A stretch of 47,568 nt of DNA from positions 1 to 47,568 of the forward strand of contig JABAAT010000031.1 in NCBI GenBank assembly GCA_014238615.1, in the 5' to 3' direction. Made by a program: the position numbers and the translations under genes. This stretch comes from Gammaproteobacteria bacterium. Lineage in GTDB: Bacteria; Pseudomonadota; Gammaproteobacteria; Porifericomitales; Porifericomitaceae. Positions 3,678 through 12,235 of this stretch are shown here, in pieces. The number at the start of each line of letters is the position of its first letter. Within the stretch, counting starts at the first letter, position 1. The notes beneath the pieces are model-generated. The model was given only the letters and a program-made list of their open reading frames with translations, ran no database searches and was not told the DNA's origin.

Positions 3678-4802
3678 TCAGGGGGTTGACTCCTGCAGCA
3701 GTTGCTGCAGTTCTTCGAAACGCCGCGGCCATGGCTTTTTTTCAGCTGCTTCCGGTGGCAATTCGGAGATCGCGGCCCGTGCCGCTTGCTGGTCGATGAA
3801 GGAACCGTACACGCCATTGTAGCGGATCCGCCCTTGGACCAGAAGCCTGACATAGCCGACTTCCCGCTCCCATGTATGGCCGGTAATCATTCTCAGCACC
3901 TCGTTTTCATTCAGGGCGCTGATGAATTGCAGCGTGTAGTGCGCGGGGGGGCGTTCCCTGACCCAGTCCGCACGCCGGATGATACTGTCCGGGTGACGGG
4001 TGGGTGCCGCCGCCGTCCTGGACTCCGGGGCCGGGACGGCCTCCGGGGGCGCGGCGGGTGCCGCCGGCGCGGCGGGCTCCGGGGTCGTCGTGAGCTCCGG
4101 GGCTGCAGGCGGCCCCGGCGGCGCCTCGCCGTCCCACTCCAACAACCGCTCCCGGGCTTGCTGTAATCCCTGCTCCGCCGCCCGCCGGTACCAGGAACGC
4201 GCTTCCTCCAGGTCTCGCGGAACGCCGTAAGCGCGTTCGTGGAAAACACCCAGGTTGTATTGGGCCGCGGCGTTGCCTTGGGTCGCGGCGTCCCTGAACC
4301 AACGCAAGGCCTCTTGGTAATCCTGGTCCACGCCTTTACCGAAGGCGTAAAGCACGGCCAGGCTGTATTGGGCCTCGTCCAAACCTTGTGCCGCCGCTTT
4401 CGTGAACCATTCGGCCGCGGTGGCCGGATCCTGACCCACGCTGCGTCCGTAGTAATAGCGCAATCCCAGTTGCTGTTGCAGGTCGGACGCTCCTAACCCG
4501 GCGCCCCGCGTCAGGTAGCGCAGCACCTGCTGTTCGTTGCGGGAAACGCCAAGGCCGCGCTCATACATCGTCACGAGGCGGCGCAGGGCGCGCAGTTCGC
4601 CGCGCTCGGCCAGTTCCGAAAAGATGCTGAGAGCACTTTCGTAGTCACCACCCTGGTAGGCCGCCTCGCCCTCTTCAAAATCCGCGGCGGCGGCAACCCC
4701 TGCTAACAGCGCGGCGCAAAACAACGGCGCCAGCAGGCCCAGGCTTCGCAAAGCCCGCGGTGCCGGGAACGTCGCTTCAGGACATCCGGGAGGTAAGCTC
4801 AT
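3678..4802 (-). CDS. Sel1-repeat protein with C-terminal SPOR domain
   Basis: 374 aa, probably periplasmic or envelope-bound. It has an N-terminal hydrophobic export signal (LGLLAPLFCAALLAGVAAA). About four Sel1-like helical repeats follow at residues 40-220 (for example AAEWFTKAAAQGLDEAQYSL and EARSWYRRAAEQGLQQARE). A proline/alanine-rich linker spans about 225-275. The C-terminal SPOR-like domain of some 75 residues starts at HYTLQFISALNE. SPOR domains bind denuded peptidoglycan glycans; Sel1 repeats mediate protein contacts. The ATG lies inside the mtdB 3' end (26-nt overlap), so expression is probably coupled to mtdB. No enzyme motif is present. Confidence 0.88.
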   Translation of the reverse strand: MSLPPGCPEATFPAPRALRSLGLLAPLFCAALLAGVAAAADFEEGEAAYQGGDYESALSIFSELAERGELRALRRLVTMYERGLGVSRNEQQVLRYLTRGAGLGASDLQQQLGLRYYYGRSVGQDPATAAEWFTKAAAQGLDEAQYSLAVLYAFGKGVDQDYQEALRWFRDAATQGNAAAQYNLGVFHERAYGVPRDLEEARSWYRRAAEQGLQQARERLLEWDGEAPPGPPAAPELTTTPEPAAPAAPAAPPEAVPAPESRTAAAPTRHPDSIIRRADWVRERPPAHYTLQFISALNENEVLRMITGHTWEREVGYVRLLVQGRIRYNGVYGSFIDQQAARAAISELPPEAAEKKPWPRRFEELQQLLQESTP

Positions 4803-5634
4803 AAATGTTCAGTGCGTCCAGCACATGATCGGTGCGCTCAAACAGGTGGGCGATGCAATGTCGATGCAACGCCAGCTTCATGCCGCCGAAACCAATAGCC
4901 CCCCAGGCCTTCTTGCCGTGCCGCTCCCTGGCGCGGTCCTGAATGTCCACGCCTTTCAGGCCGGCCGGTGGAGCGGCGTTGGCGTCCAGCAGGACTTCTA
5001 GTTCCGGGCATACCCGCCAAGCCTCCTCGGCGAGCAGGTTGACTCCGCTCGCCCCCGCGGAAAAGAGTATTTGGAAGCCGGATAACGCCTGGGCACGAGC
5101 CGCGTTGGTGGCCGCTTCGATCGGCGCCGCGTGAATTCCGTAGTGCTTCTCCAACAATTCAGAACAGAGCATCGCTCTCTCCATGCGCCGTGAACTGATG
5201 CTGACCTCGGCCCCCTCGTGCGCCAACATCAAGGCCGCGCGTTGACCGACCGGCCCGGTGCCCGCCATCACCAGGACCCGCTTGCCGGTCAGGCTGGTGG
5301 TGCGTGCCAGGCAGGCCACACCGGCCGCCGCGGTGGTATTGCAGCCATTGCTGTCCAGCATGGCCGAAACCCTGAAGTCAGCGAAAAAATACGACTGAAC
5401 CGCCTCAAATACGGCCATTCCTTTATCCAGGTCACTGCCGCCCACGAAGATGGCCGTGTTGCATTTTTCCTTCGGAGAACGAGTGAAAATGGCGCCTTCC
5501 ACCAGGGCCCGGACGTTTTCCGTGGTCACCCCGGAGTAACCGATGACCTCATCGGCGCCGCCGTCATACCCGACTACGGTGTCAAAAAACGAAGCGTGAG
5601 AGTCGGGGTCAAGTTGTAACAGCAACTTTTTCAT
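4777..5634 (-). CDS. mtdB: NAD(P)-dependent methylene-tetrahydromethanopterin dehydrogenase
   Basis: 285 aa, cytoplasmic. It oxidises methylene-H4MPT to methenyl-H4MPT in the tetrahydromethanopterin-linked formaldehyde oxidation route of methylotrophs. The N-terminus MKKLLLQLDPDSHASFFDTV and the segment NGCNTTAAAGVACLAR are characteristic. A nucleotide-binding loop GTGPVGQRAA sits near residue 140, followed by SSRRMERA, where the MtdA/MtdB family contacts the dinucleotide phosphate. ATG 5634 was chosen because AGGAG precedes it by about 10 nt and homology begins there; the open frame continues upstream to 5931 without family similarity. MtdA and MtdB are paralogues; the local sequence favours MtdB, but cofactor preference was not tested. 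It is divergent from fchA across a 296-bp gap. Confidence 0.87.
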   Translation of the reverse strand: MKKLLLQLDPDSHASFFDTVVGYDGGADEVIGYSGVTTENVRALVEGAIFTRSPKEKCNTAIFVGGSDLDKGMAVFEAVQSYFFADFRVSAMLDSNGCNTTAAAGVACLARTTSLTGKRVLVMAGTGPVGQRAALMLAHEGAEVSISSRRMERAMLCSELLEKHYGIHAAPIEAATNAARAQALSGFQILFSAGASGVNLLAEEAWRVCPELEVLLDANAAPPAGLKGVDIQDRARERHGKKAWGAIGFGGMKLALHRHCIAHLFERTDHVLDALNIYELTSRMS

Positions 5635-5743
5635 AATGGTTGAGTGCTCCTGTCGGGCCCGTTGTGCAGCAGGCAGGTAATCAAAAAGTGATGGTGTCTC
5701 CACCCTCGCTTCGTATCGGGGCGGTCTTTCCATGCCGCACTGG

Positions 5744-5772
5744 TTGACACGCAGTGTCCCAGAGGAAACAAT
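5744..5772 (+). promoter_or_regulatory. Candidate sigma-70 promoter for fchA
   Basis: TTGACA at 5744-5749 and AACAAT at 5767-5772 are separated by 17 nt. The -35 is perfect and the -10 matches 4 of 6. It faces fchA, leaving a leader of roughly 150 nt. On the opposite strand TATAGT (5789-5794) could serve mtdB as a -10, but I see no good -35 for it. Prediction by eye only. Confidence 0.45.
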
Positions 5773-5930
5773 ACCGAGGCGCGATTTTACTATAAGATGA
5801 AATGACTTTCTTCGATCCGCGCCCCATGAACTCCCGGTGGGAAGTCCGCACACCGCAGACCGCGCGCAAACGTGTCTCAGCCCGCATCCCAGGCCACAGT
5901 TCAGGCCATCACCAATGGGGACGACAAGCA

Positions 5931-6557
5931 ATGCAAGAAACCACCTTAAACTCTTTCCTGGAACAGTTGGCGAGCGACAGTCCCACGCCGGGAGGAGGAG
6001 GCGCCGCCGCGCTCATGGGTGCACTGGCGGCCGCCCTGATCGCCATGGTCTGCCGACTGACCATCGGCAAGAAGGACTATGCCGCGGTGGAGCAGGACTG
6101 CCGCCGCATCCTGGAACAGGCCGATCGCTTCCGCGCACGATGCCTGGAGATGATGAGCAAAGATGAAGAGGCTTTTGCCGCGTTCATGGAAGCCTATCGT
6201 ATGCCGCGCGCCGACGAGGCCGAAAAGCTCGCGCGCAAGACGGCCGTGCAGCGCACCCTGCGCCTGGCGACCGAAACCCCCTTGCAATGCGCCGAACTCT
6301 GCTCCGAACTACTCACGTTGAGTCGCGAGATCTCCGAAATCGGCAATCGCAACGTCATCAGCGACGCCGGCGTGGCGCTGTTAGCCGCCTACGGCGGGAT
6401 GCGCTCCGCCGCCTTGAATGTCTATACCAACCTGGGCGGCCTGGAAGACGCCGAGCTCGCGGAGAGCAGTGCGAAGCGCCTGGAGGAATGCCTGCTTTTG
6501 GGTGAGGGATTGGAAGCGGACTACCAGGCGGTGCGGGTGCGCCTGCCCGGCGCCTGA
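5931..6557 (+). CDS. fchA: Methenyl-tetrahydrofolate cyclohydrolase (FTCD-like family)
   Basis: 208 aa, cytoplasmic. It belongs to the formiminotransferase-cyclodeaminase C-terminal family, whose methylotroph members (FchA) interconvert methenyl-H4F and 10-formyl-H4F. Supporting features are DSPTPGGGGAAALMGALAAA at residues 17-36, the family folate-binding loop, and NRNVISDAGVALLAA with SAALNVYTNLGG near residues 135-170. Length fits a stand-alone cyclodeaminase-type enzyme. ATG 5931 was chosen over the upstream in-frame ATG (5802) because GGGGACG precedes it and family similarity starts there. The divergent mtdB supports a one-carbon role rather than histidine degradation. The 3' end overlaps convergent nadC by 37 nt. 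Confidence 0.85.
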   Translation: MQETTLNSFLEQLASDSPTPGGGGAAALMGALAAALIAMVCRLTIGKKDYAAVEQDCRRILEQADRFRARCLEMMSKDEEAFAAFMEAYRMPRADEAEKLARKTAVQRTLRLATETPLQCAELCSELLTLSREISEIGNRNVISDAGVALLAAYGGMRSAALNVYTNLGGLEDAELAESSAKRLEECLLLGEGLEADYQAVRVRLPGA

Positions 6558-7432
6558 GCACCGGCCGGCCGCGCACCGCGCTGCACCGCCGGCTCCATAC
6601 GCAAGGAAAAATCCACCGCCCGCGGGTGCTTGGTCAGGGCGCCGACGGAGATGCGTTGCACACCGCTCGCCGCCAATCCCGGCAGGTTTTTCAGGCTCAC
6701 CGCACCTGAGATTTCCAACACCGCCCGTTTCGCGGCACGGCGCACCGCGGCACGGGCACGGCGCGGGCTGAAATTATCCAACAGGATGGAGCGGGCTCCG
6801 GCCTCCAGGGCCTCTTCCAGTTGCTCCAGGCTCTCCACCTCCACCTGCACCTCCACGCCGCGGCGTGCGGCGCGGCGCAGCAAGGCGCGCAAGCCGCCGC
6901 CCGCCGCCAGGTGATTTTCCTTGAGCAATATCGCATCGTACAGTCCCATGCGGTGATTCGAGCCGCCCCCGCAACGTACCGCATATTTCTGTGCCGAACG
7001 CAACCCGGGCAGGGTCTTGCGTGTATCCAGCAGGCGCACCGCGCCAGCCTGCTTTGCAAGTTGCGCGAAACGGTGTGTGGCGGTTGCGGTGCCGGACAAC
7101 AGCTGCAGGAAATTCAAGGCGGTGCGCTCGCCGCTGAGCAGCGCCCGCGCCGGTCCCCGCAGGCGGCATACGGTCTGTCCGGGGCGCAACGTCGCACCAT
7201 CACGGACCAGCCAGGAGCAGCGCACGGCCGGAGACAACAGGCTGAAACAGCGATCAAACCAGGGCGAGCCGCACAACACGGCCGCTTCGCGGCAGATCAG
7301 GGTGGCGCGCGCCTGGGTGGAGGACGGCACCAGGGCCGCGCTTAAATCGCCGTCGCCCAGGTCTTCCTCCAGCGTCCGGCGTACCTGTTGCTCTAAATCC
7401 TCGGGCGGCGGGCCGGTGGCGGGTGCGCTCAA
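6521..7432 (-). CDS. nadC: Nicotinate-nucleotide pyrophosphorylase (carboxylating)
   Basis: 303 aa from TTG 7432. It converts quinolinate and PRPP to nicotinate mononucleotide in de novo NAD synthesis. Family signatures include GERTALNFLQLLSGTAT, the active-site stretch LLDTRKTLPGLRSAQKYAV, GGGSNHRMGLYDAILLKENH, the metal/PRPP segment EVQVEVES, and LEISGAVSLKNL near the end. TTG is preferred because it forms a 4-nt overlap with the stop of the symporter gene upstream and gives a normal length; an in-frame ATG at 7489 would put 19 more residues inside that gene. It is the last gene of the egtC-egtB-protease-symporter run and converges on fchA. Confidence 0.93.
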   Translation of the reverse strand: MSAPATGPPPEDLEQQVRRTLEEDLGDGDLSAALVPSSTQARATLICREAAVLCGSPWFDRCFSLLSPAVRCSWLVRDGATLRPGQTVCRLRGPARALLSGERTALNFLQLLSGTATATHRFAQLAKQAGAVRLLDTRKTLPGLRSAQKYAVRCGGGSNHRMGLYDAILLKENHLAAGGGLRALLRRAARRGVEVQVEVESLEQLEEALEAGARSILLDNFSPRRARAAVRRAAKRAVLEISGAVSLKNLPGLAASGVQRISVGALTKHPRAVDFSLRMEPAVQRGARPAGAQAPGRRTRTAW

Positions 7433-8826
7433 GGTTCCCGCGCCCCGGGAGCGTTCGGGGCCGCCGTGTACTTGCGGGTCAGGCGCCACACCAGGCCGGA
7501 AAGCGCCAGCACCGCCAGCAGGTTAGGCACGGCCATGAGGAGATTGGTGATGTCGGCAAGGTCCCAGACCAACCGCAGGGGCGCCATCGCTCCAACAAAC
7601 ACCAGCGCCACGAAGATGAGCCGGTAGGGCCTTATGGCGCGTGCTCCGAACAGGAAGTCGGCGCAGCGGTCCCCGTAGTAAGACCAGGCCAGCATGGTGG
7701 AGAAGGCGAACAGGCAAAGTGAGACCTGTACCAGCGTCGCGCCCGCCGGGCCGAGTTGCAGCTGAAAGGCGTGGGAGGTCAAGGCGGCTCCGGTCAGGGC
7801 CGCCCCGTCCGGGTCCAACGGGGGCCGTTCCAGGACGCCGCCGGCCAACAGCACCAGTCCGGTCATACTGCAAATCACCAGCGTATCAATGAAGGGGCCG
7901 AGCATCGCCACGAGACCCCCCTGTACCGGGTGGCGGAAGCGCGCCGCCGCCATGGCCATGGGCGAGGAACCCAGGCCCGCCTCGTTCGAGAATAGCCCGC
8001 GCGCTACCCCCCAGCGCAGGGCTTCGCCGGCAACCGCGCCGCCCGCGGCCTCCAGGCTGAAAGCACTCCGCACTACTTCGCTGACCAGGCCCGGTATTTC
8101 GCCGGACCGCGTCAGCAGGATGGACAGCGCCCCTCCCACGTAGAGCAGCGCCATGGCGGGCGCCAGGGCAGCTGCCACCACGGCGATGCGGCGCACTCCA
8201 CCCAAGATGACCACCGCCACCAGCAGCGCCATCATCAAGCCCGGCAGCCAGCGCTTATCGTGCAAGCTCGGGAACATGTAGGCGGTGTTATCGGCGATGG
8301 AATTGGCCTGCACCATGTTGCCGATGCCGAAGGAGGCGATCATGGCGAACAACGCAAAACAGAACGCCATGCGCCGCCAACCCAGGCCGTTCACCAGGGT
8401 GTACATGGGACCGCCGGCCACCTCGCCATTCGGCCGCAGCTCGCGGAAACGCACGGCCAGGGTGCATTCCGCGAATTTGGTCGCCATCCCCAGGAAGGCC
8501 GTGACCCACATCCAGAACAGCGCCCCGGGGCCGCCCAGGGTCAGCGCGGTCGCCACCCCGGCGATGTTCCCTGTACCCACCGTGGCCGAAAGCATCGTGG
8601 CGAGCGCCTGGAAACCGGAGATCTCGCCGGCGCCGCGCCCCGTTCCGCGCCACAGCACGCGCCAGGAGAGCTTGAAGCAGCGCAACTGCACGAAAAACAG
8701 GCGCAGGGACAGGAACAGGCCCACACCCAGCAAGCCATAGAGGGTGACCGGATGTCCCCACAACAGGCTGGATAGCGCTCCCAGCCAGTCCCCCAGCTTG
8801 TCTGCCACGCTAAGCCGCTCCCTCAA
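7429..8826 (-). CDS. AGCS-family amino acid:cation symporter
   Basis: 465 aa, inner membrane, about 10-11 hydrophobic segments. The family-defining stretch TVGTGNIAGVATALTLGGPG (about residues 82-101) is present, as are PNGEVAGGPMYTL and RGLFSNEAGLGSSPMAMAAA. These are typical of sodium:alanine symporters (AlsT/DagA type), which import alanine or glycine with sodium or protons. Start and stop overlap neighbours by 4 nt on both sides, so the gene is embedded in the egt-nadC operon. The context could mean import of an amino acid or thiol precursor or product, but the substrate cannot be read from sequence. Confidence 0.92.
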   Translation of the reverse strand: MRERLSVADKLGDWLGALSSLLWGHPVTLYGLLGVGLFLSLRLFFVQLRCFKLSWRVLWRGTGRGAGEISGFQALATMLSATVGTGNIAGVATALTLGGPGALFWMWVTAFLGMATKFAECTLAVRFRELRPNGEVAGGPMYTLVNGLGWRRMAFCFALFAMIASFGIGNMVQANSIADNTAYMFPSLHDKRWLPGLMMALLVAVVILGGVRRIAVVAAALAPAMALLYVGGALSILLTRSGEIPGLVSEVVRSAFSLEAAGGAVAGEALRWGVARGLFSNEAGLGSSPMAMAAARFRHPVQGGLVAMLGPFIDTLVICSMTGLVLLAGGVLERPPLDPDGAALTGAALTSHAFQLQLGPAGATLVQVSLCLFAFSTMLAWSYYGDRCADFLFGARAIRPYRLIFVALVFVGAMAPLRLVWDLADITNLLMAVPNLLAVLALSGLVWRLTRKYTAAPNAPGAREP

Positions 8827-9335
8827 CCGCCGTCGTGGTGTTGCACCAGTTCAAAAGTGTCGCCTTGCTGCTTGAATTCCAGGCGTCCGAGAAAATTCAT
8901 GCCCAGCAAAACCTCGGCTCCCCGGTATGGGTTGATGGTGCCGGCCACATCGTACAACACGATATCGCCCAGGCGCACCTCGCGCAGCACGGTATGGTAG
9001 GCGCGCGCGGGTCCGGCGGCGGTCTGGACGACGAGTTCCGGGCCGTACTCCAACTCGAGTGTGCGCGCCAGTTTTTCGGGCACACTAACCGTGGTGGCCC
9101 CCGTGTCAAGCAGAAACCTGGCTTGCCTTCCATTGATGGAGCCGGTGGCCACGTAATGTCCTATGCGATTGCGCTGCAGCAGCACCCGGGTGGTCCCTTC
9201 CCCGGTGCGGCTGCGCACCTGCCGATTCGGATTTTCGTCGCGCTCCACCAAGAGCTGAAAAAACCCGGTCAGCAGGGCGATGCCAAGTACGCAGGCAATG
9301 AAGAGCATGCGCCCGCCGAGCCGTTCGGTGCTCAA
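8823..9335 (-). CDS. Membrane-anchored retropepsin-like aspartic protease (TIGR02281 type)
   Basis: 170 aa. One N-terminal membrane segment (LFIACVLGIALLTGFFQLLV, residues 11-30) is followed by a periplasmic domain of retropepsin fold. The catalytic motif is FLLDTGATTVSVP, with Asp near residue 77. A second family block reads AEVLLGMNFLGRLEF. Proteins of this family carry one DTG motif and are expected to act as homodimers, as retroviral proteases do. They are widespread in proteobacteria, with natural substrates mostly unknown. ATGA overlaps join it to egtB upstream and to the AGCS gene downstream. Confidence 0.88.
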   Translation of the reverse strand: MSTERLGGRMLFIACVLGIALLTGFFQLLVERDENPNRQVRSRTGEGTTRVLLQRNRIGHYVATGSINGRQARFLLDTGATTVSVPEKLARTLELEYGPELVVQTAAGPARAYHTVLREVRLGDIVLYDVAGTINPYRGAEVLLGMNFLGRLEFKQQGDTFELVQHHDGG

Positions 9336-10516
9336 TGGTGCTTCCTCATGGGGGCATCGTAAACCAAACGCAGCCCGGCATTCAGATGACGATGACCGGG
9401 AGGGTGGAAGTTCCTGAAACTGGGACGCTGCAACCAGTTTCCAGAAAGACGGCTGCCGCCGCGCAGGATATAGTGGCGGCCGTCGAACCAGGGAGTGGAG
9501 TATTCCTCGTAGGGATAAGCCTTGAATCCGGGGTAGGGGTGCAGGGGGTTAGCGCACCATTCCCAGGTCTGTCCACATCCTTCAAGGAGACCCAGGCGGC
9601 GCGCCGCCTCCCACTCGTACTCGTGCGGCAAGCGGCCTCCGCCCCAGGCGGCGCAGGCGGACGCCTCGTAATAACTGATGCCCCAGACGGGACGCCGCGC
9701 GGCCCGGTGCAGCTTGTCGTCCGGCCAGCGCCACCGCCCCGCGACGTCCCGCCGCCAATACCCGGGCGCCTCGCAAGCGTTCCGGCAGCGCCATTCCCAG
9801 CCTTCCCGGCTCCAGTATTCCGGGCGCCGATAACCCTCTTCCTCCATAAACGCCAGGTATTCGGCGCAACTCAGCGGCCGGCGTGCAACGCGGCATCCCG
9901 CCAGGTACACCTCGTGGGCGCGGCATTCGTTGTCAAAAGCCCCCCGCGCATTGGCGGTGCCTATGGAATAACGGCCGGTTGGCAGACTAAGGCTGTGGTG
10001 TGCCGCCGGACAGCGCGGCCCCGCGCGCGGCGCGGGCGCGACCGCGGCGTTCGGCGACGCATCACGCAGGGCGCGTTGTGCCTGCGCCAGGGTCAGGCTC
10101 TCCAGGTGCATGGCGTGGTGCTGGATCAAGAAGCGTGCCAGGTAATGGTCCTGCAGCAAAGCATGCCGGTGCTGTGCCGGCAACCGTCCCAGCAGGCGGC
10201 GGTGTCGGGCCTGGCGGGCGGTGCACTCGCGCAGCAATGACCGCAACGGCGGCAGCATGGCTCCGCGTTCTTGCTTCGGTAAGCTCCAGGGCATCCAGTC
10301 GATGCCTGGCCGCGCCCCCGTGTATCGCGTCAACCCGGCTTCCCTTATCCAGTGCGCCTCAACGTGCACACAATGCGCCAAGTGCCAGCCTGGCGGGCTC
10401 AACTCTTCGTGCCAGCAGCACCGGTAACCGGTCTCTCCAAAAAGCGCCACCGCCTTGCGCAGGCGGGCCTGCAGTTCATGCAAGGCACTGAGCAGCTGCG
10501 TTGTTTCCAGCGACAT
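9332..10516 (-). CDS. egtB: EgtB-type nonheme iron sulfoxide synthase (ergothioneine biosynthesis)
   Basis: 394 aa. An N-terminal DinB-like helical bundle (about 1-150) carries the iron ligands: HX3HXE at H133/H137/E139 and an earlier histidine in GWHLAHC (H45 or H48). A C-terminal formylglycine-generating-enzyme-like domain (about 175-390) shows FDNECRAHEVYLAG, EEEGYRRPEYW, LPHEYEWEAARR and LRGGSRLSGNWLQRPSFRNF. EgtB joins trimethylhistidine (hercynine) to a thiol donor with oxygen. The selenoneine synthase SenA has the same architecture. The adjacent egtC favours ergothioneine by a gamma-glutamylcysteine route, and the SenB/SenC partners are absent. No methyltransferase EgtD or lyase EgtE lies in the window. 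Confidence 0.85.
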   Translation of the reverse strand: MSLETTQLLSALHELQARLRKAVALFGETGYRCCWHEELSPPGWHLAHCVHVEAHWIREAGLTRYTGARPGIDWMPWSLPKQERGAMLPPLRSLLRECTARQARHRRLLGRLPAQHRHALLQDHYLARFLIQHHAMHLESLTLAQAQRALRDASPNAAVAPAPRAGPRCPAAHHSLSLPTGRYSIGTANARGAFDNECRAHEVYLAGCRVARRPLSCAEYLAFMEEEGYRRPEYWSREGWEWRCRNACEAPGYWRRDVAGRWRWPDDKLHRAARRPVWGISYYEASACAAWGGGRLPHEYEWEAARRLGLLEGCGQTWEWCANPLHPYPGFKAYPYEEYSTPWFDGRHYILRGGSRLSGNWLQRPSFRNFHPPGHRHLNAGLRLVYDAPMRKHH

Positions 10517-10585
10517 GCGCTCAATCCCGCCGCGCGTGCGGCGGTGCCTCCACCGACCGGCACGCCGTACCGGGACACTGCGGCT

Positions 10586-11359
10586 TCAAAGCTTCTCCAG
10601 CAAGAGCGGATGGCCGTGCCGCGCCAGTAACAGGGAATGCGGAGGCAACGTCCGCCAGCCGCGCGCCCGGGTCAGCTTTTCGGAGGCGACCAGCAGGGCC
10701 CCTGGATAACCTGGATCGCGCTCGCTGTAGTACAGCGAGGGACAGCGATCGTTTACGGCGTGGCGCAGGGCGCAGACCGACCGGCCGTCACTTAAGAGCA
10801 GGTTCAAAAGCCCCTTGCGCCGCCCCAGGAAATGGTGCAGCTGTGCGCAGACGGCGCGCAGGGCGCCTGGGAAGTCGCGGTGGCGACGCCACTGTTCCCG
10901 CAGCAGGGCGAAGATGTACTCGGAATCAGTGCTGCCCGCCACCTCGCCTCGCCGCTCCGGCGGTAGCAGCTCCAGCAATTCCCCCGCCATCCCGGAGCCG
11001 AAAGCCTGCAGGCAGCCGTTGTGCAGGTACATCAGGGAACCGTTCCGGAAAGGCTGGGTGTTGCTTTCGGTGACCGGTTGCCCGGAAGTTGCGCTGCGCA
11101 CGTTGGCCAGCCACAAGGTGCTACGCAGGCCGCGTCCCAGGCTTTCCAGGTTGCAATCGTTCCATATGGGGCGCGTGCTCAGGTAAACCAACGGCCGCCG
11201 TGCGGCGCCGTACCAGCCAAAGCCGTAACCATCCGCGTTGAGCCGCGCCTCGTGCATCTCACGCGGCGCCCAGGACTGCTGCAACAGGCTGTGCGACGGG
11301 CGGCACAAAAAGTCTTCCAGGCGGATGCGCGGCCCCAGGTAAGCGGCAAAACGGCACAT
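10586..11359 (-). CDS. egtC: Class II glutamine amidotransferase-like EgtC (gamma-glutamyl amidohydrolase)
   Basis: 257 aa. The start MCRFAAYLGP places the Ntn nucleophile Cys at position 2. Family segments include HEARLNADGYGFGWYG, LANVRSATSGQPVTESNTQP and SLMYLHNGCLQAFG, plus STDSEYIFALL. In mycobacterial ergothioneine synthesis EgtC removes gamma-glutamate from the hercynyl-gamma-glutamylcysteine sulfoxide made by EgtB. The open frame continues far upstream (to 12214), but that part is antisense to ampD and unrelated. The ATG at 11359 is required by the N-terminal cysteine mechanism. No strong ribosome site is seen. EgtB starts 69 nt downstream, consistent with one transcript. Confidence 0.88.
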   Translation of the reverse strand: MCRFAAYLGPRIRLEDFLCRPSHSLLQQSWAPREMHEARLNADGYGFGWYGAARRPLVYLSTRPIWNDCNLESLGRGLRSTLWLANVRSATSGQPVTESNTQPFRNGSLMYLHNGCLQAFGSGMAGELLELLPPERRGEVAGSTDSEYIFALLREQWRRHRDFPGALRAVCAQLHHFLGRRKGLLNLLLSDGRSVCALRHAVNDRCPSLYYSERDPGYPGALLVASEKLTRARGWRTLPPHSLLLARHGHPLLLEKL

Positions 11360-11587: not shown

Positions 11588-12235
11588 ATGCAAGCGCTTG
11601 ACACGGCGGGGCCGGGGCTGCGCCTGGAAGCCGACGGCTGGCTGGGCACGGTGCGCCGTTGCCGTTCGCCCAACCAGGACGCGCGGCCTTCCGGTACGAC
11701 CGTCAACCTGCTGGTAGTGCACGCCATCAGCCTGCCGCCAGGCTGCTTCGGCGGTCCGCATGTCGACCGGTTGTTTACCAACACCCTTGAACCGCGGGCG
11801 CATCCCGGCCTTGAGACCCTGCGGGGACTCCGCGTCTCCGCCCATTTGCTGATTGCCCGTGACGGCGGGGTGACCCAGTACGTGTCCCTGTCCCGGCGCG
11901 CCTGGCACGCCGGGGAGTCGGTCTTCGAGCAGCGGCCGCGTTGCAACGATTACTCCATCGGCGTGGAGCTGGAAGGCGACTCCCAGGTTTCCTACGCGGA
12001 GGTGCAATACCTGCGCCTGGTGGAGCTGAGCCGCCTTCTCATGCGCGCCTATCCTGCCATCAGCCCCGAACGGGTCGTGGGGCACTGCCACATCGCCCCG
12101 AAGCGCAAGCAGGATCCCTACGCGCACTTTGACTGGGATTGGTACCGCGCCCGGTTGCGTGATCGGTCGCGCCCGCCCGGGGCGCGACCGCCGCTGCCGC
12201 CCGGCACCCGCCATGGTGAGCCCGACAGGATTTGA
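11588..12235 (+). CDS. ampD: 1,6-anhydro-N-acetylmuramyl-L-alanine amidase
   Basis: 215 aa, cytoplasmic zinc amidase. It cleaves the lactyl-amide bond of anhydromuropeptides during peptidoglycan recycling and so lowers the AmpR-inducing signal where AmpC is present. Zinc ligands are visible: the first His in LLVVHAISLPPG, and the second His with Asp in RVVGHCHIAPKRKQDPYAHF. SVSLSRRAW-type and NDYSIGVELEGD blocks also match. AAGGAG precedes the ATG by about 12 nt. The last seven codons lie inside the antisense tRNA-Lys gene (22-nt overlap), so the C-terminal tail HGEPDRI is encoded by tRNA sequence read backwards. Confidence 0.93.
   Translation: MQALDTAGPGLRLEADGWLGTVRRCRSPNQDARPSGTTVNLLVVHAISLPPGCFGGPHVDRLFTNTLEPRAHPGLETLRGLRVSAHLLIARDGGVTQYVSLSRRAWHAGESVFEQRPRCNDYSIGVELEGDSQVSYAEVQYLRLVELSRLLMRAYPAISPERVVGHCHIAPKRKQDPYAHFDWDWYRARLRDRSRPPGARPPLPPGTRHGEPDRI

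Follow-up and report, generated by a model that had tools for sequence, protein, structure and literature searches.

Five genes lie close together on one strand of the window analysed here, a stretch of 47,568 nucleotides from a draft gammaproteobacterial genome, and they pair homologues of two ergothioneine genes, egtC and egtB, with a retropepsin-like protease, an AGCS symporter and nadC. Does such packing mark a single functional module, or have genes with different tasks come to share one place? Two independent neighbourhoods meet here, in the slot between ampD and nadC. Very probably the locus belongs to an ordinary ergothioneine pathway whose egtC-egtB pair has been placed in that slot next to an egt-independent block, and the arrangement is a gene-order variant rather than a new system.

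Organization of the locus

Profile searches returned family matches for all five genes (Table 1). The order of the genes, their minus-strand orientation, the 69-nt gap between egtC and egtB and the 4-nt overlaps joining the others, as given in a preliminary description of this DNA, were all confirmed, the overlaps depending on assumed TTG starts for the retropepsin, AGCS and nadC genes alike. Each overlap reads TTGA (egtB/retropepsin, 9332-9335; retropepsin/AGCS, 8823-8826; AGCS/nadC, 7429-7432), and nadC, whose TTG start lies inside the last of these, has an alternative GTG start at 7489. The nadC gene also overlaps the convergent fchA-like gene by 37 nt. The protease scores above the TIGR02281 cut-off and carries the DTGA motif (FLLDTGAT in the sequence). 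Scans for promoters and terminators gave nothing beyond chance. We infer that the egt genes and the retropepsin, AGCS and nadC genes are likely to share a transcript and to be coupled in translation at this locus.

Table 1. Genes of the locus and its flanks, with positions in the window.
Gene and product	Position	Strand	Family match or remark
egtC, class II glutamine amidotransferase	10586..11359	-	TIGR03442 EgtC, 221.8 bits (cut-off 218.65)
egtB, iron-dependent sulfoxide synthase	9332..10516	-	EgtB subfamily under curated cut-offs
retropepsin-like aspartic protease, membrane-anchored	8823..9335	-	TIGR02281, 90.3 bits (cut-off 57.95)
AGCS sodium:amino-acid symporter	7429..8826	-	TIGR00835, 478 bits (cut-off 272.65)
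nadC, quinolinate phosphoribosyltransferase	6521..7432	-	TIGR00078, 288 bits (cut-off 198.4)
ampD, divergent, one slot edge	11588..12235	+	NF008758 AmpD, 254 bits (cut-off 143)
fchA-like methenyl-tetrahydrofolate cyclohydrolase, convergent with nadC	5802..6557	+	PF04961; NF045657 FchA, 246 bits (cut-off 275)
MtdA/MtdB-type methylene-tetrahydromethanopterin dehydrogenase	4777..5931	-	PF09176, 105 bits

The EgtB and EgtC proteins

The window EgtB is a DinB/FGE-type protein whose nearest solved chain is the Mycobacterium thermoresistibile EgtB (4x8b, E 3.4e-40), and in the tree it groups with the EgtB of same-family genomes (support 96/84) on a long branch (0.75). It fell below the cut-offs of both the TIGR03440 EgtB model (235 bits, cut-off 360) and the SenA model (253 bits, cut-off 420), as did all eight other members of its clade that were scanned, with SenA again slightly ahead. 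Site equivalences were taken from an alignment to the M. thermoresistibile enzyme with positions counted by hand; by this alignment the iron histidines H48, H133 and H137, the catalytic tyrosine Y336 (equivalent to Tyr377), R84 (Arg90) and N369 are invariant across the 45 aligned EgtB rows, and K81 (Arg87) is lysine in 43 of them; K81 and R84 are the two basic residues on the substrate side. The roles of the iron histidines, Tyr377 and Arg87/Arg90 in mycobacterial EgtB are those set out in PMC4768315 and PMC10903977. Two mycobacterial residues, Trp415 and Asp416, are replaced in the window EgtB, the latter by His at a position that holds Tyr, Phe, His or Cys across the clade. Of 81 columns that are at least 90% conserved the protein departs at five; L105 and L010 depart at the same number, L103 and L111 at more.

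The closest solved chains to EgtC are 3mdn and the EgtC structures 4zfj, 4zfk and 4zfl. The protein begins MCR, which we take to supply the cysteine expected at the N-terminus of class II amidotransferases. Read together, the EgtB residues and the adjacent EgtC would point to gamma-glutamylcysteine as the sulfur donor.

An egtD gene elsewhere in the genome

The preliminary description regarded EgtD and EgtE as absent, spoke of a two-gene core, and proposed a genome search for egtD and a PLP lyase. The cluster is indeed without egtD, and no EgtE above cut-off was found genome-wide, but the search of the source genome (draft assembly of 1,666,869 bases in 75 contigs, 99.27% complete) did find an EgtD. 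It is the only Methyltransf_33 protein in the genome, lies on another contig (G000:C20:2071-2985) and scores 323 bits against TIGR03438, the model for the L-histidine N-alpha-methyltransferase EgtD (cut-off 290.9). TIGR03438 likewise matched in 31 of the 32 genomes with the window's type of EgtB, in 29 of them above cut-off, the two weaker matches being EgtDs truncated by contig ends; the notion of a two-gene core does not hold for this group.

We considered contamination as the origin of this egtD, which neither composition nor phylogeny suggests. The GC content of the contig is 0.661 against 0.651 for the window, and their tetranucleotide make-up correlates at r 0.967, pieces of the window among themselves giving 0.91-0.985. 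In a tree of 46 rows the protein sits on a long branch (0.99) inside a supported group of eight (100/99) that includes the EgtD of three same-family genomes. Its neighbour on the contig is PstS, which was not found beside the egtD of relatives, so that this linkage is not conserved.

Proposed pathway and its missing steps

Ergothioneine synthesis by this organism is likely. In the proposed route EgtD would trimethylate histidine, EgtB would join the product to gamma-glutamylcysteine as a sulfoxide in an oxygen-dependent reaction, EgtC would strip the gamma-glutamate from that sulfoxide intermediate, and a PLP C-S lyase would complete ergothioneine. With the mycobacterial egtABCDE system (PDB 4x8b for EgtB) the window shares the iron ligands, the Tyr377 and Arg90 positions, EgtC and, in the genome, EgtD; it differs in that the genes occupy two loci, that no EgtA or EgtE was found and that EgtB lies under the curated cut-off. 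For Methylobacterium, PMC4621440 reports dispersed egt genes together with proven ergothioneine; they lie at separate places as they do here, the paired genes being egtB-egtD in that case and egtC-egtB in the window. In Gammaproteobacteria, too, the genes for ergothioneine can lie at more than one locus.

For the lyase step, the best genome-wide EgtE score (77 bits, cut-off 400) belongs to a SufS-type desulfurase, one of three weak PLP matches; the others are a PhnW-like enzyme and an unnamed member of class V. A dedicated EgtE within egt neighbourhoods was rejected, the three candidates having no relative at E 1e-8 in 242 other loci. It is possible that a non-orthologous C-S lyase fills the step, and the class V enzyme (G000:C57:24318-25313, in L229; SufS 121 bits, cut-off 475) is the least assigned candidate. 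As a separate observation, the desulfurase frame (624 aa; G000:C65, L228 1279-3150) also scores with the model for family 2A encapsulin cargo, at 580 bits and below its cut-off of 800.

For the donor, searches of the source genome for gamma-glutamylcysteine ligase gave no PF04262 and no PF04107 protein (controls for both worked) and no PF08886 protein, though for the last no control matched either. PF04107 and PF08886 were searched in this genome alone; PF04262 is absent from all four genomes of the family and from 15 of the 32 genomes searched (31 with the window's type of EgtB, plus G121), which may mean that other ligase types are at work. A bolder reading is that the family makes ergothioneine without a known gamma-glutamylcysteine ligase, by an undescribed ligase or from scavenged gamma-glutamyl thiols, and that the EgtB clade represents a subfamily not yet described, which binds the donor in a manner of its own; we consider this unlikely.

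Neighbourhoods of egtB

Among 274 genomes of the class, 38 had an EgtB match at 1e-40, and setting aside the divergent EgtB-like rows L112-L115, L117 and L118 left a core of 32; two contig-end fragments (L110 and L116) are included in the neighbourhood figures but do not enter the alignments. The egtC gene is directly upstream of egtB in 29 of the 32 genomes, and egtD stands divergently beside the pair in 17. Downstream of egtB we found nadC in 20, AGCS in 16 and the retropepsin in 10 (immediately adjacent in 8), and eight genomes, spread over several families, hold all five genes in order. Ten of the 32 are without retropepsin, AGCS and nadC, although among these L107 stops 319 bases past egtB and L110 and L116 are the fragments. 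Within the family of the window, G001 and G002 have its entire gene order; in G003 the order is egtC-egtB-nadC, with neither the protease nor the symporter.

Named genomes, scanned separately, yielded 14 loci (L013-L026), all of Thioalkalivibrio. Their EgtB belongs to the same clade as the window's, and egtC is directly upstream of egtB in both. They differ from the window in that every one reads egtD-egtC-egtB, with egtD divergent next to egtC, and that none has a retropepsin, AGCS, nadC or ampD gene in the flanks covered.

The six proteins set aside above form a supported group (L112, L113, L114, L115, L117 and L118, from G241, G195, G087, G059, G127 and G255 respectively). They retain almost nothing of the active site (iron histidines, catalytic tyrosine, basic donor residues), their loci are without egtC, and EgtD is absent from four of the six genomes. 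The group is probably an EgtB-like family that lacks catalysis or has taken on another role.

The retropepsin block and the ampD-nadC slot

Approached from the protease side, some retropepsin match is present in 147 of the 274 genomes. We worked with 88 loci, the window included, that have full-length matches (E up to 3.8e-24), a set that leaves out weaker or shorter matches and from which the duplicate region L119 was dropped. A block was defined as a retropepsin that has AGCS or nadC no more than 2.5 kb away in the same orientation (L149 and L154 have nadC in line and AGCS on the opposite strand), and 30 of the 88 loci have such an AGCS or nadC gene after the retropepsin. The egtB or egtC gene is near the block in 11 of the 30, counting L168, which has egtC without egtB; the block stands without them in the other 19, counting L143, which has egtD and neither egtB nor egtC. 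None of the 19 egt-free genomes is among the 38 with an EgtB match.

The preliminary description had left two roles open for the protease and symporter, one in thiol histidine metabolism or transport and one as passengers, and had proposed a neighbourhood survey of the EgtB clade, naming as one refuting outcome that protease, symporter and nadC stand together without egt genes in most relatives. The survey gave that outcome: the occurrence of the retropepsin with AGCS and/or nadC, and without egtB or egtC, in 19 of 30 loci speaks against the first role and favours the second. That the five genes are a single functional module, in which retropepsin and AGCS serve ergothioneine metabolism or transport (for example by taking up precursor amino acids for EgtB and EgtD), is very unlikely in our judgement. 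Consistent with it are the tight gene packing in the window genome, the eight genomes with the retropepsin right after egtB and the eight with all five genes in order. A full-length retropepsin is also in excess among genomes with the window's type of EgtB (17 of 32, against 70 of the 242 others; Fisher p 0.008, ancestry uncorrected), which counts against independence and could mean a functional link. The single-module reading is contradicted, beyond the egt-free blocks, by the egt loci that are without the block (the 10 of 32, with the short locus and the two fragments among them, and all 14 from Thioalkalivibrio) and by the 58 retropepsin loci outside the block, none of which has egtB or egtC nearby. 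Joint transcription of the five genes is plausible, a shared function unsupported, and the retropepsin is probably an accessory gene unrelated to ergothioneine.

The preferred reading, of an egt pair and an egt-independent block meeting in one slot, agrees with what lies between ampD and nadC in other genomes. Egt-free retropepsin-(AGCS)-nadC blocks often adjoin ampD. The series ampD-retropepsin-AGCS-nadC-fchA-mtdB-sel1 in L142 has the window's order and no egt genes, and L095 has the same series plus egtC-egtB (gap lengths in this comparison being those between BLAST matches, not start and stop codons). In L099 the stretch also holds two DUF1538 genes. The contents of these three loci indicate that the ampD-nadC stretch carries a changing set of accessory genes. 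The egtC-egtB pair would then lead a transcription unit set into a slot of varying accessory genes in Gammaproteobacteria, and retropepsin, AGCS and nadC would be a neighbourhood with tasks of its own. A caution follows for annotation: 4-nt overlaps alone are a poor guide to function, since the slot of these coupled neighbours exists without egt genes.

DUF1538 pairs were seen in the slot of four loci (L099, 8712-10282; L143, 4761-6275; L106, 8912-10461; L097, 7480-9023), in the opposite orientation to egtB or the retropepsin; the assignment was Pfam-tested for L099 only and rests on reading-frame likeness in the other three.

The preliminary description did not consider the cluster a described one for ergothioneine. 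We likewise found no paper in the open-licence PMC literature that treats egtB, egtC and nadC together and nothing relevant on a retropepsin with nadC or ampD, but what is new is confined to gene order. The protease resembles the bacterial retropepsins RloA and RimB (PMC12239564) and ApRick (PDB 5c9b) in being an exported or anchored member of that family; its sequence matched ApRick (E 3e-4) and neither RloA nor RimB.

Nature of the product and state of the pathway

We regard it as highly improbable that EgtB is a SenA-like selenoneine synthase, or uses another thiol, and that the product is not ergothioneine. The lead of the SenA model over the EgtB model, in the window and in all eight clade members, would fit such an enzyme, but the score is far under the SenA cut-off. 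TIGR04348, which we take to be the SenB model, gave only a weak partial match in the genome (24 bits, cut-off 300), and SenB was rejected on that ground. The adjacent EgtC, kept in 29 of 32 genomes, would be superfluous for a selenosugar route, and K81 and R84 are conserved. Least probable of all is a decaying relic whose pathway was broken by loss of ligase and lyase, a reading that the reduced genome (1.67 Mb), the two genes not found and the long EgtB and EgtD branches would suit, but against which stand the retention of all catalytic residues, the mere five departures at conserved columns and an intact EgtD above cut-off.

The EgtB clade is common in Gammaproteobacteria and goes unnamed by the curated models; organisms that make ergothioneine may therefore be undercounted by automatic annotation.

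Beside nadC, the MtdA/MtdB-type dehydrogenase and FchA-like cyclohydrolase genes (4777-6557) form a divergent pair that recurs in L088, L095 and L142. The true start of the fchA-like gene is probably near 5930, and that of the dehydrogenase gene probably downstream of its first TTG. The pair may replace FolD or be part of one-carbon oxidation.
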